From contig JACPBO010000006.1 of assembly GCA_016180285.1 (NCBI GenBank), positions 1-33,938 of the forward strand: a stretch of 33,938 nucleotides of DNA, written 5' to 3'. This stretch comes from Candidatus Woesearchaeota archaeon. GTDB taxonomy: Archaea > Nanobdellota > Nanobdellia > Woesearchaeales > JACPBO01. Every line of letters starts with the position of its first letter. Position 1 is the stretch's first letter. Shown here one piece after another: positions 2,755 through 15,157 of the stretch. The position numbers and the translations under genes were made by a program. A model generated the notes under the pieces. The model was not told the DNA's origin. It searched no databases and worked only from the letters and a program-made list of their open reading frames with translations.

Positions 2755-4020
2755 TTACCAGCATATTCCTTCGTAATTCTTTGGCTTTTTTTCATTAAAA
2801 ACATTCTTGCCGTCTATCACCGGCTTGTCCCCATAGCTGAGATCTCTGAATTCAGGCCATTCTGTCAGTATCAGCACAATATCTGCCCTGTCAACAGCTT
2901 CCTGCGCTGTCTTTGCATAATTCAGATGGGGAAAAATTCTTCTTACATTTTCCATGGCCATCGGATCATAAAGATAAAGCTTTGGCTCCTCAATCAAAAG
3001 CTCCTTTATTATGCTTAATGCAGGGCTTTCCCTTATATCATCTGTTCCGGACTTAAATGTCAATCCTAAAATTGCTATTTTCTTGTTTTTTATGCTGTGC
3101 TTTTCTATTATTTCCAGTAATTTCAATGGCTGCTCTTTATTTACATCCAAAACCGCCCTCAATAATCTCGGATGATAGCCGCGCTCTGTTGCCTTATAGA
3201 TCAAAGCAACAACATCTTTCGGGAAACATGAGCCGCCAAACCCGATTCCTGATCTTAAGAAATACGGATTGATTCTCTTGTCAAAGCCAATGCCTTTTGC
3301 AACAATATTTGTGTCTATTCCTATTCTTTTGCAGACATTGCCTATTTCATTTATGAAGGATATCTTTGTTGCAAGGAAAGCGTTGCTTGCGTATTTTATC
3401 ATTTCAGCTTCCCTGAAAGATGTTTCAAGTACGGGGCATTTGAAATTTTTGTAAAGCTGCTTTAATGTTTCAATTGACTTTTTGTCTGCGCTTCCAATTA
3501 CAATCCTGTCAGGGCTGAAGAAATCATCCAATGCAGAGCCTTCTTTCAGGAATTCAGGGTTCATTGCAATGCCAAAATCCCTTCCGAATTTTTTTCCGGA
3601 ATACTTTTCTAAAATCGGAATTACAGTTTTTTCGCATGTTTCAGGAACAACTGTGCTTTTTATGACAATAAGATGCTTGTCTTTCTTGTTTTTAAGGATT
3701 TTTCCGATTTCCATTGAAACAGTTTCTAATTGATTCAGAATAATGCTGCCTTCTTTTTTTGAAGGCGTTCCGACGCAGATGAATGTTATTTTTGTGTTAT
3801 TTATTGCTTTTTTCAGTTCTGTTGATGCTGTTAAGCTTTTTGGAACAACCTCTTGCAGTAATTCTTTCAGGCCTTTTTCGTATATAGGCGGATCTTTCAT
3901 GTTTATTTTATCCACTTTGTTCTGATCAACATCTACAAGGATTACATTATTTCCCAGTTTGGCCAGCCCTGCTCCCTGTATTAAGCCAACATAGCCTGCT
4001 CCAATTATTGAAATGCCCAT
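2755..4020 (-). CDS. ugd: UDP-glucose/GDP-mannose 6-dehydrogenase family
   Basis: 421 residues, full length for the family. Features in order: Rossmann motif GAGYVG (7-12); conserved VGTP (83-86); the central helix with K209 and N213; the catalytic cysteine C265 in GFGGSCFPKD; and the C-terminal NAD-binding lobe with LGLTFKSGTDDIRESP. The enzyme oxidises an NDP-hexose twice to an NDP-uronic acid (UDP-glucose to UDP-glucuronate, or the HexNAc/mannose equivalents), supplying acidic sugars for surface glycans. It heads a two-gene minus-strand operon with the nucleotidyltransferase. A TATA box about 26 nt upstream suggests leaderless transcription. Substrate among UDP-Glc, UDP-GlcNAc(A) and GDP-Man is not resolved here. 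Confidence 0.9.
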   Translation of the reverse strand: MGISIIGAGYVGLIQGAGLAKLGNNVILVDVDQNKVDKINMKDPPIYEKGLKELLQEVVPKSLTASTELKKAINNTKITFICVGTPSKKEGSIILNQLETVSMEIGKILKNKKDKHLIVIKSTVVPETCEKTVIPILEKYSGKKFGRDFGIAMNPEFLKEGSALDDFFSPDRIVIGSADKKSIETLKQLYKNFKCPVLETSFREAEMIKYASNAFLATKISFINEIGNVCKRIGIDTNIVAKGIGFDKRINPYFLRSGIGFGGSCFPKDVVALIYKATERGYHPRLLRAVLDVNKEQPLKLLEIIEKHSIKNKKIAILGLTFKSGTDDIRESPALSIIKELLIEEPKLYLYDPMAMENVRRIFPHLNYAKTAQEAVDRADIVLILTEWPEFRDLSYGDKPVIDGKNVFNEKKPKNYEGICW

Positions 4021-4041
4021 GCTTGCTTTGAAAATCGAGAG

Positions 4042-4053
4042 TCTTTAAATATC
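4042..4053 (-). promoter_or_regulatory. TATA box of ugd
   Basis: On the minus strand AAGATATTTAAAGA is centred about 26 nt before ATG 4020, the archaeal spacing for a leaderless start. Confidence 0.55.
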
Positions 4054-4078
4054 TTACCATTATCCTACTTTATGCGAT

Positions 4079-4090
4079 AAATTTAAATAT
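4079..4090 (+). promoter_or_regulatory. TATA box upstream of the RHH-nucleotidyltransferase gene
   Basis: TAAATTTAAATA on the plus strand predicts a transcription start near 4110-4115. That is just before the 4117-4226 foldable element, so the element would form most of a leader of about 145 nt for the gene starting at 4258. Confidence 0.5.
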
Positions 4091-4116
4091 TGGAAGGTTA
4101 TTTCATTGGCAAATCG

Positions 4117-4226
4117 AAAAAATCCAGCCAACCATGGTGCCTACGGACAAAACTTCGTGTTTTGTCCTACTCGGGTTTCCCGCAGGGAGCATCCCCTCCC
4201 TAGTCGGCACCATGGCTGGATTTTTT
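4117..4226 (+). repeat. GC-rich foldable element, copy 1
   Basis: The ends are long inverted repeats: AAAATCCAG and CCATGGTGCC on the left pair with GGCACCATGG and CTGGATTTT on the right, with a 4-nt bulge on the left arm. Inside are a hairpin GGACAAAAC/GTTTTGTCC with a TTCGT loop, the segment CCTACTCGG, and a conserved small hairpin AGGG-AGCATC-CCCT. The same element, about 114 nt, recurs at 15018-15131 with identical 19-nt left and 15-nt right ends and a similar core. The inner stem differs but is still paired in both. It is far more GC-rich than its surroundings. It could be a small mobile element, a structured RNA, or a DNA-binding platform. Confidence 0.75.
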
Positions 4227-4257
4227 TGTGCAATATGTATGTGGGCTTGTAACAACA

Positions 4258-5058
4258 ATGAAAAAGAAAATAAGCATTACAATAAACGAGAAAACATTGA
4301 AAGAGATAGACTCCATAATTGACAATATTTATATCAGGAACAGGAGCCAGGCAATGGAGTTTCTTGTGAATAGCTCTCTTGGGGAGAATAGGGTGGCTGT
4401 CATACTTGCAGGCGGCAGCGAAGAGGATCTGAAACTTGGCAGGGAATACAGAATGACTGCAAAGATCAATAACAGCGCTGTCATTGAAATGGCGATCAAG
4501 AAATTAAAGGAAAACGGCTTTAAAACAATATTCTTCATTGCAAGGCACAATATAATGAGCAGGGTTTTTGACCTTATAGGAGACGGAAGCTTATACGGCA
4601 TGAAAATAAGCTATGTTGAGGAAAAAGAAGCCAGCGGAACAGCAGATTCATTAAGGCTGCTAAGGGGAAAGATAAAAAACAATTTTTTAGTTGTCTATTC
4701 TGACATAATATTTGACAAAATAAACATTGAAGAGCTCTGGAATGACCATCTGAGGCGCAGAAGCATTGCAACACTTATGCTCACAACCTCTCCCACACCG
4801 TCAAAAAAAGGAGTTGTAAGAATGGAGGGAGAAAAGATACTTGAATTTGTGCAGAAGCCGAAGCAGAGCGACATTTACATCGGATTCAGCTCGATCTTTG
4901 CTGCAGAGCCTGAGATCATGGAATACAGCGGAGCAAGCCTTGAGAAAGACGTTTTTCCTGTTTTGGCTTTGAAAGGGCTTTTGCAGGGGCATTTAAGCAG
5001 CCAGAAGGAAACGCATATACATACGAAGAAAGATATTGTTGGCTTTTTAAAATCATAA
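4258..5058 (+). CDS. ribbon-helix-helix domain fused to sugar nucleotidyltransferase
   Basis: Two modules in one 266-residue protein. Residues 1-45 (begins MKKKISITINEKTLKEID, then NRSQAMEFLV) look like a MetJ/Arc/CopG-type ribbon-helix-helix DNA-binding domain: a short beta strand then two helices with the N-R-S-Q-A turn. From residue 46 a nucleotidyltransferase fold begins (VAVILAGGSEEDL), with TAKINNSAVIEM for substrate contacts, VVYSDIIF as the metal Asp strand, and EFVQKPK as the sugar-site loop. The usual GxGTRLxPLT loop is replaced by GGSEEDLKLGREYR, so catalysis may be altered or lost. ATG 4258 is chosen over upstream in-frame starts because the RHH strand begins there. A self-regulating enzyme or a sugar-nucleotide-sensing repressor are both possible. 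Confidence 0.78.
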   Translation: MKKKISITINEKTLKEIDSIIDNIYIRNRSQAMEFLVNSSLGENRVAVILAGGSEEDLKLGREYRMTAKINNSAVIEMAIKKLKENGFKTIFFIARHNIMSRVFDLIGDGSLYGMKISYVEEKEASGTADSLRLLRGKIKNNFLVVYSDIIFDKINIEELWNDHLRRRSIATLMLTTSPTPSKKGVVRMEGEKILEFVQKPKQSDIYIGFSSIFAAEPEIMEYSGASLEKDVFPVLALKGLLQGHLSSQKETHIHTKKDIVGFLKS

Positions 5059-5965: not shown

Positions 5966-6012
5966 GAAAATTGTTGTGGTTTAATACCTCGGACTTTAGT
6001 CCGACAATTTTC
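5966..6012. repeat. palindromic element A (stem plus inner hairpin)
   Basis: The outer arms GAAAATTGT (5966-5974) and ACAATTTTC (6004-6012) are perfect inverted repeats, and an inner hairpin CGGAC-TTTA-GTCCG sits between them at 5990-6003. The interior TTTAATACCTCGGACTTTAGTC is similar to element B next door, so A and B are two diverged copies of one element. The design resembles the subterminal hairpins of IS200/IS605-type elements and REP-like derivatives; no transposase gene is present here. Confidence 0.65.
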
Positions 6013-6017
6013 AATCC

Positions 6018-6074
6018 CGAAAATCGCATGATTAAATACTCTAGACTTTAGTCTGGGGATTAGTGCGATTTTCG
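6018..6074. repeat. palindromic element B (stem plus inner hairpin)
   Basis: The outer arms CGAAAATCGCA (6018-6028) and TGCGATTTTCG (6064-6074) are perfect inverted repeats of 11 bp. The inner hairpin AGAC-TTTA-GTCT is at 6043-6054. It shares TTAAATACTC and GACTTTAGTC with element A but has different, still fully paired outer arms. It abuts the stop codon of the Fic gene (6075) and may act as that gene's transcript end. Confidence 0.65.
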
Positions 6075-13638: not shown

Positions 13639-14973
13639 TTAAATGATATCCTCTTTTACAATTTCTCCAGGCAATGTTGTTTTGCCACTCCATATCTTTC
13701 TTCCAGGGTAGATTGATGTGTTTATTCCTATGTGGACATCATTTCCGATTATTGCGCCAAGCTTTCTTCTTCCTGTATCGATCAGCTGGCCTTTTACCAT
13801 TGATTTTATATTTGAATTGTCGTGCCTCAGATTTGCAATTTTCGTTCCTGCCCCGAAATTAACATTCTCCCCGATTACAGAATCACCCACATAACTAAGA
13901 TGGGCAATATGCGTGTTATTGTATATTATAGAATTCTTGATCTCAACTGCGTTGCCTATTTTGCAGTTATCGCCTATGCTTGTTGATGCCCTAATATAAC
14001 AATTAGGGCCAATGACGCAGTTTTCTCCTATGACAACGGGGCCTTCAATATAAGCCCCATTCTTTATTATTGCGCCTTTTCCAACAATGACATTGCCTTT
14101 TATTGTTGCATTTTTTTCAATATCTCCTTCAATTTCGGATTTTTTAATTTTTGACAATAAAAACTCATTTGCCTTCAGCAAATCCCAGGGATAACCTATG
14201 GGAATCCAATACTGGGAGTTTATCGCTTTGAGATTTTCTTTTCTTGCCAGCTCATTGATTGCATCAGTCAGCTCATATTCGTTTCTTTCTGACTTTTTGA
14301 CCTGTTTTAATAATGAGAAAATTGCCTTGCTCAACAGATAACAGCCAACATTTGCCAATTTGGAAGGCGGACTGGCAGATTTTTCAACAATTCTTTTCAA
14401 ACAGCCTTTTTCCTCTTCTATCGATCCGAAATTCTCAGGCTTTTCAACCTCCTGCGCCAATAATGCATATTTTTCATTTGTCAAGAACCGCCCATCAGAG
14501 ATGGGTGAAATTTTGCTGCTGTTTACCGCACCAGGTGGTTCTTGATCATGCTCGGAAATTTTCTGCAATCTGGAATGTGATTGGCTTTCTGCCACCAGTT
14601 TTAAACCGGTGGAAAATTTCCGACATTTCAATTTCAACAAATCTTCCCTGAAAAACATGTCATCCCCTACGAGGACAATGAACCTTTCTTCTGCATATTT
14701 TTCTGCCTGCAGCAATGCATGGCCTGTTCCAAGCTGATCTTTCTGCTCAACATACCTTATTGTTATATTTTTGAATTTATTGCCGAATGCGGCTTTTATC
14801 ATTTCTGCCTTGAACCCGACAACTAGGATAGCTTCATCTATCATACCTTCCAGTTGCTCAAGATTATGCTCCAGAATGCTTTTATTTGCTATTTTAAGCA
14901 GGCTTTTCGGCATTGTAACTGTCAAAGGCCATGTTCTTGTTGAGCTTCCTGCTGCCAATATTATTGCTTGCAT
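13639..14973 (-). CDS. glmU: bifunctional GlcN-1-P acetyltransferase/UDP-GlcNAc pyrophosphorylase, with in-frame insert
   Basis: 444 residues. The N-terminal pyrophosphorylase has AAGSSTRTWPLT (7-18), GTGHALL (82-88) and the metal site LVGDDMF (101-107). The C-terminal left-handed beta-helix (about 281-440) has hexapeptide repeats and the acetyltransferase His H358 in IAHLSYVGDS, followed by NFGAGTKIANLRHDN. It converts GlcN-1-P to UDP-GlcNAc in two steps, after GlmS. Residues about 116-167, Ser/Lys-rich and unlike the family, interrupt the link between the EDLL helix and the YALLAQEVEKPENFG strand. At DNA level this stretch is two palindromic elements (14481-14545 and 14553-14622) kept in frame. 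The enzyme is probably still active because the insert lies in a surface loop. Confidence 0.9.
   Translation of the reverse strand: MQAIILAAGSSTRTWPLTVTMPKSLLKIANKSILEHNLEQLEGMIDEAILVVGFKAEMIKAAFGNKFKNITIRYVEQKDQLGTGHALLQAEKYAEERFIVLVGDDMFFREDLLKLKCRKFSTGLKLVAESQSHSRLQKISEHDQEPPGAVNSSKISPISDGRFLTNEKYALLAQEVEKPENFGSIEEEKGCLKRIVEKSASPPSKLANVGCYLLSKAIFSLLKQVKKSERNEYELTDAINELARKENLKAINSQYWIPIGYPWDLLKANEFLLSKIKKSEIEGDIEKNATIKGNVIVGKGAIIKNGAYIEGPVVIGENCVIGPNCYIRASTSIGDNCKIGNAVEIKNSIIYNNTHIAHLSYVGDSVIGENVNFGAGTKIANLRHDNSNIKSMVKGQLIDTGRRKLGAIIGNDVHIGINTSIYPGRKIWSGKTTLPGEIVKEDII
14481..14545. repeat. palindromic element C inside glmU
   Basis: The outer arms TCAAGAACCGCC (14481-14492) and GGTGGTTCTTGA (14534-14545) are inverted repeats with one mismatch. 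Just inside the left arm is a hairpin CCCATC-AGA-GATGGG. It is translated on the minus strand as part of the GlmU insert. Confidence 0.65.
14553..14622. repeat. palindromic element D inside glmU
   Basis: The outer arms CGGAAATTTTC (14553-14563) and GAAAATTTCCG (14612-14622) are perfect 11-bp inverted repeats, with an inner CCACC...GGTGG hairpin. It has the same stem-plus-inner-hairpin design as elements A-C, and its outer arms resemble those of A and B (GAAAAT/ATTTTC). It adds about 23 codons to glmU without breaking frame. Confidence 0.65.
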
Positions 14974-15017
14974 TTTAAGTTGAAAATTTTGTTAATTGAA
15001 TGTGTTTTATTTTTGAC

Positions 15018-15131
15018 AAAATCCAGCCAACCATGGCAGGAGACGGTCAAAACCTCGCTTTGCTCGGTTTTGCCCTACTCGGCATCCCGTAGGGAGCAAC
15101 CCCTGCCTCGTCTCCGCCATGGCTGGATTTT
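15018..15131 (+). repeat. GC-rich foldable element, copy 2
   Basis: The ends AAAATCCAGCCAACCATGG and CCATGGCTGGATTTT are identical to copy 1 at 4117-4226. The inner extension is GGAGACG/CGTCTCC here against TGCC/GGCA in copy 1: different bases, still paired. The core again has a GTCAAAACC/GGTTTTGCC hairpin, CCTACTCGG, a CCCTAC/GTAGGG stem and AGGG-AGCAAC-CCCT. It lies between divergent genes glmU (minus) and the S-layer-domain regulator (plus). The rest of the 14974-15221 region holds AT-rich promoter sequence. Confidence 0.75.
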
Positions 15132-15157
15132 CGTTGTAAAGCATAGCGAAACAAAAA

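Follow-up and report, generated by a model that had tools for sequence, protein, structure and literature searches.

The two foldable elements of the window, by which we mean the whole 33,938-nt stretch of woesearchaeal DNA analysed here, very probably belong to a MITE-like family of palindromic, non-autonomous DNA transposons found in Woesearchaeota. The element is multicopy, dispersed and noncoding, with no open frame longer than 87 codons within the units, and its intact members elsewhere carry the features that define MITEs, i.e., terminal inverted repeats and target duplications (six core-bearing units with perfect duplications of 5 or 9 bp). As far as our searches show, this is apparently a large and undescribed repeat family. 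What makes it unusual is an internal fold conserved across the order, with interchangeable stems, which is set in two terminal-repeat frames.

Two copies of the element in the window

Copy 1 (4117..4226) and copy 2 (15018..15131), both on the + strand, were examined by folding, by the genome search and by alignment. The sequence-only reading had described here two foldable copies of about 110 nt lying in divergent intergenic regions, and this description held for both. The copies share their ends (AAAATCCAGCCAACCATGG, 19 nt, and CCATGGCTGGATTTT, 15 nt) and a conserved core seen in the alignment, and the inner stem differs between them (TGCC/GGCA vs. GGAGACG/CGTCTCC) with the pairing kept in both. 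A DNA search within the own genome related the two with E = 1e-17, and folding against shuffled sequences gave z-scores of -10.9 for copy 1 and -6.4 for copy 2 on the + strand. In copy 1, the outer stem AAAAAATCCAGCC/GGCTGGATTTTTT is followed by an AACC bulge, the inner stem ATGGTGCC/GGCACCAT, the hairpin P2 (GGACAAAAC/GTTTTGTCC), an invariant T and the domain P3 with TCCC..GGGA; the respective parts of copy 2 are the inner stem GGAGAC/GTCTCC, P2 TCAAAACC/GGTTTTG and P3 GGCA/TGCC. One pairing proposed earlier changes: the hairpin AGGG-AGCAwC-CCCT is not supported, and covariation among 122 copies favours instead TCCC-GTA-GGGA, which sits within the stem GGCA..TGCC and leaves CAaCCCC as an unpaired 3′ strand.

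Copy 1 has a UDP-glucose/GDP-mannose dehydrogenase on one side and an NTP_transferase protein on the other, and copy 2 is flanked by a GlmU-like protein and by one carrying HTH and S_layer_C domains. The gene at 4228-5058 had been taken for an RHH-nucleotidyltransferase; the nucleotidyltransferase part agrees with the NTP_transferase match, whereas the RHH N-terminus is discerned by eye only, with no RHH model above threshold.

Comparison with the sister species

In the sister species, the sites that correspond by orthology to those of the two copies are empty. At copy 1, homology stops at 4091 and restarts at 4259, with 21 bp left in the sister; at copy 2, it breaks at ~14984 and 15149, with 9-10 bp left. 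The flanks of the copies are missing there as well (4092..4116, 25 nt, and 4227..4258 for copy 1; 14985..15017 and 15132..15148 for copy 2), and therefore the inserted piece exceeds the fold in length. The left flank of copy 1 may be part of an inserted unit with decayed ends. In this comparison of the own genome with its sister, the difference at the window copies is either a gain here or a loss in the sister, and no clean target duplication was recognisable for these copies in the sister alignment. A sister counterpart is also missing for the copies at five other loci (L002, L007, L009, L090 and L092); at L010 and L016, the orthologous site of the sister holds a different element, and the pairs L004/L034, L005/L036 and L086/L081 are sites common by descent.

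An AT-rich TATA-like box at 4082..4090, a putative promoter element, is common to the sister species, where it lies ~25-30 nt ahead of the start codon of the NTP_transferase gene; here, copy 1 intervenes. Judging by the sequence, copy 1 probably parts this gene from its ancestral promoter, and it may plausibly alter the expression of the gene. The comparison with the sister species shows ongoing remodelling of promoter-near intergenic regions by such elements.

Copy number and distribution

In the own genome, which comprises 1.33 Mb in 51 contigs, the DNA search yielded about ten clear relatives. A covariance model trained on eleven copies gave 27 matches in the own genome and 23 in G001, the sister species, which belongs to the same genus; some second-strand duplicates are counted in both numbers. 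With this model, the element was detected in 19 genomes among the 60 relatives from the order, with 1-35 copies apiece. Thus, what had been read as a two-copy element is present in many copies. A consensus pattern run over 84,980 prokaryote species matched at least 119 stretches, and the matches examined are mostly complete elements. Among the matches listed, nearly all records are Candidatus Woesearchaeota or Nanoarchaeota MAGs; the exceptions are a single Pacearchaeota record and a short contig binned as Thioploca, perhaps in error. There were zero matches among 2.9 million viral contigs, and the literature search found no paper on such repeats in Woesearchaeota. In this way, a large repeat family is added for the uncultured DPANN archaea.

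Terminal repeats and target duplications of intact units

Comparison of copies within genomes revealed repeats that extend beyond the fold. The intact transposition unit has ~180-250 bp and surrounds the 110-nt palindromic core. In G055, G001 and G053, the core is framed by TGTTAAGTAAA..TTTACTTAACA, and four core-bearing units have perfect 5-bp duplications (CACCA at L351, AAAAG at L414, TATTT at L354 and CTGCC at L147). The unit of G031 measures 184 bp, its terminal repeat is GGCTTCATCCAAAAAAT (17 bp), and two core-bearing units show perfect 9-bp duplications (CGTTGGCAA at L376 and CTCTTAAAC at L384) at different targets, which read on one strand GTTTAAGAG and TTGCCAACG, the opposite strand being printed as well. 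Outer inverted repeats (at least 19 of 24) were found at 10 of the 102 sites vs. 0.12 expected from shuffled flanks. Two genomes contained 8 and 9 occurrences of the TIR pattern and none of the reversed pattern, and the second TIR gave 41 matches vs. 0 for its reversed pattern. These 41 matches, to GGCTTCATCCAAAAAA in G031, outline a terminal-repeat family with units of varied length, only some of which bear the core.

A small non-autonomous mobile element was among the hypotheses of the sequence-only reading, which had named target-site duplications as its mark, and this is where the evidence leads: the element is multicopy, the sister sites are empty, and intact units elsewhere possess terminal inverted repeats and target duplications. 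At neither window copy could such repeats or duplications be recognised, nor at most of the 102 sites; the window copies would be older members with decayed terminal repeats. We suppose that the element would be moved by a cut-and-paste transposase supplied in trans, which would recognise the terminal inverted repeats (mostly TGTTAAGTAAA.., with 5-bp duplications, and in one genome GGCTTCATCCAAAAAAT, with 9-bp ones). Using the TIR patterns in the search for a parental autonomous element, we found no transposase with these ends, and the rve family was not found in either the own or the sister genome. The sister genome has an interrupted copy of 1.1 kb (L358) that was considered as the autonomous partner and rejected, as its gene is not a transposase but one that we take, by eye, to be alpha/beta-hydrolase-like. 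At this locus (1167-2259; G001:C6 ~352660-353760), the gene splits a family copy and comes with its own inverted repeat, GGGACAATTTCTCT.

Units with the same ends but other contents exist too, for example in contig C40 of the own genome with the duplication GGTTT, and therefore frame and core are separable. This 178-bp unit (L362/L343, G000:C40 ~3958-4135) has TGTTAAGTAAAG ends and is devoid of the core. L078 and L006 are flanked by the same 5-mer, immediately 5′ of BRE/TATA-like promoters, and its recurrence suggests a target preference.

The conserved fold of the core

Judged on 122 aligned copies, the fold is a three-way junction with an asymmetric bulge and a conserved core. The outer stem P1 is variable in sequence (AAAATCCAGCC, AAAACACCACC, GCCGCACGCCACC and others), and the bulge comprises about four bases on the 5′ side only. 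Inward from the bulge lie the inner stem, the junction AC, the hairpin P2, in which a pyrimidine mismatch (a conserved T.C) is common, a near-invariant T and the domain P3, which terminates in CCC-GNA-GGG and leaves the CAaCCCC strand unpaired. The initial model paired GAC with GTC below P2; this was dropped because the pair counts favour pairing of the 3′ GT with the AC that follows P2. In the refined structure, 93.5% of the pair cells are paired, 1093 two-sided changes are distributed over 35 of the 37 pairs, and the covariation score is 0.604 vs. at most 0.102 with partners slid, figures that are biased upward by an alignment fitted to a related structure, though the margin is large. Unpaired core bases, namely T116, G133/A135, C197 and CCC200-202 (positions of the alignment A3), are conserved across families. 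The covarying stems that the sequence-only reading had thought worth seeking are thus present, but alone they are no proof of an RNA.

For a transposon with terminal repeats, a conserved internal fold is not required, and hence mobility alone does not explain the conservation of the core. It is conceivable, if rather doubtful, that the core of 110 nt represents a portable module for DNA folding, conserved in shape across the archaeal order, carried in unrelated transposon frames and capable of accepting further modules. Such a module would work as a hairpin or cruciform DNA read by a shape-recognising protein. To our knowledge, folding cargo of this kind has not been described for MITEs.

Relation to known palindromic elements

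Like the prokaryotic MITEs, including Correia/NEMIS and ERIC (PMC10969869), the element is short, noncoding, palindromic, multicopy and intergenic, and its intact units resemble them in having terminal inverted repeats and target duplications and in a presumed mobilisation in trans. Unlike these MITEs, it possesses a deeply conserved three-way-junction core with variable stems and two different terminal-repeat frames, and it is almost wholly limited to Woesearchaeota among the matches listed. The palindromic elements of Rickettsia are likewise palindromes of ~100-150 bp in a small genome, but they differ in sequence, fold and host, and the family described here is mainly intergenic.

REP sequences, which are GTAG-/CGTC-tagged and accompanied by RAYT (PMC3733652), are extragenic palindromes often arranged as head-to-head dimers, and in these respects the element is similar to them; GTAGG..CCGTC-like bases are even present beside its P2 hairpin, on the reverse strand. 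Unlike REP, it is four times longer, it has terminal repeats with target duplications, and several of its high-copy genomes have no linked RAYT (compare PMC3733652). Assignment to the REP class was rejected, since a 20-40 bp hairpin with an unpaired GTAG/CGTC tag was not found and the RAYT (Y1_Tnp) gene expected for this class is not a regular companion; the would-be tag positions pair and co-vary (A-T 63, G-C 25, C-G 6; C-G 90, T-A 20). In integron attC sites, structure rather than sequence is conserved, and a one-sided bulge sets the strand polarity. The element is like attC in its conserved structure and one-sided bulge; no attC core sites were seen in it by eye, and, unlike attC, the family has terminal repeats and target duplications.

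That the element is a folded single-stranded DNA substrate of recombination (like REP/RAYT, the ends of IS200/IS605 or attC), moved by a tyrosine enzyme that reads shape (Y1/HUH or integron-like), we regard as unlikely. Covariation restricted to Watson-Crick pairs around a conserved one-sided bulge and the T.C mismatch in P2 fits such a substrate, as do the unconserved sequence of the outer stem and the head-to-head composites, which recall REP dimers. Y1_Tnp is also enriched, being present in 12 of 19 element-positive genomes vs. 10 of 41 element-negative ones, yet it was not found in the own genome nor in G004, G034 and G047 (19-35 copies), and a RAYT/Y1 link was abandoned in view of its absence from several high-copy genomes. 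Moreover, the GTAG-like bases are paired and co-vary, so no fixed unpaired tag is left, and the target duplications indicate a terminal-repeat transposase.

Selection at the level of DNA or RNA

If the fold were that of an RNA made from one strand, G.U pairs should be common and exceed A.C mismatches. In the 122 copies, G.T wobbles make up 1.2% of the standard pairs, and the G.T cells (47) show no excess over the A.C cells (69), whereas in the control set of 30 tRNAs from the same loci G.U reached 9.9% (with standard pairs only counted). The strand-specific pairing with tolerated G.U wobble that marks any structured RNA gene was not seen here. Because G.T is scarce and does not exceed A.C, the palindrome appears to be kept as double-sided Watson-Crick DNA rather than as an ordinary one-strand RNA, and we infer that the core fold serves mobility or tolerance in the form of DNA, as a hairpin or cruciform. 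The counts of G.T vs. A.C represent a clean test that separates structural selection at the DNA level from that at the RNA level.

We consider it improbable, given these counts, that the element is a structured ncRNA (leader, sRNA or riboswitch-like) with a fold selected on one strand, which would regulate the neighbouring genes. Very strong covariation along with an unpaired core conserved across families would suit an RNA, and copy 1 would fall in a leader, 3′ of the TATA-like box. However, no Rfam family matched the element in covariance-model searches, neither gene context nor orientation recurs, and presence or absence differs between the sister species at most sites compared. Just as improbable is the upkeep of the palindrome by mutation, i.e., by template switching between the arms, with a fold devoid of function: arm-copying would leave hardly any one-sided changes, as observed, but it would erase or ignore the one-sided bulge, the T.C mismatch and the unpaired core bases, all of which are conserved across families.

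Genomic context

At 98 sites, the genes around the element are arranged in tandem (45), divergently (25) or convergently (12), the other sites being inside an ORF call (8) or at a contig edge (8); a tRNA lies within 300 bp at 13 of 99 sites. No recurrent family of neighbour proteins was found once ORFs created by the element and loci that are orthologous or scattered are set aside, and thus the sugar-nucleotide genes around the two window copies are a local fact. A location beside these genes would be incidental for the transposon family that we propose. Since each site has its own, unrelated flanking genes, the remaining hypotheses of the sequence-only reading lack support: a leader RNA or ncRNA for sugar-nucleotide control is at odds with sites of all orientations, non-recurrent flanking families and the near absence of G.U pairs, and a specific role as a platform for the RHH protein disagrees with the occurrence of the element at many sites and in many genomes irrespective of the gene for this protein. 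Apparent regulatory RNAs beside interesting genes can turn out to be mobile elements. A bidirectional terminator or insulator between divergent genes is very unlikely, for the T-runs that follow the outer stem in this genus are absent from other subfamilies, which finish in G+C-rich stems, and the sites are of every orientation.

Modular inserts and other repeat families

A structured insert of 133 bp occurs in four copies, two per sister species, which are 92-99% identical (L005 1567-1700, L092 1350-1482, L200 1818-1950 and L213 1398-1530). In the three copies read through, it occupies the same P3a loop position despite differing outer stems. Other copies of the element form head-to-head composites with a common arm. 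A further palindromic type, with AAAATAACACCACC or AATCCCACCACTA ends, adjoins family copies at L002 (~1360-1490) and L009 (~1300-1440); its internal AACC-hairpin-GAAC motif is also found in L143 and L056, in place of the P3 domain.

The window itself contains two more repeat families. A different repeat at 14484-14625 is inserted in frame inside the GlmU-like ORF (13639-14973), where it accounts for 49 extra residues in comparison with the sister protein and is bordered by a 5-bp duplication TTTCA with one mismatch in the left copy; this family has more than 10 copies in the sister genome, and the in-frame insert is an archaeal case resembling the Rickettsia palindromic elements. A third palindromic repeat, at 5966-6074, lies directly 3′ of the 5S rRNA gene; it has a perfect 5-bp duplication TTATT, the site is empty in the sister species, and more copies are present in the sister genome.
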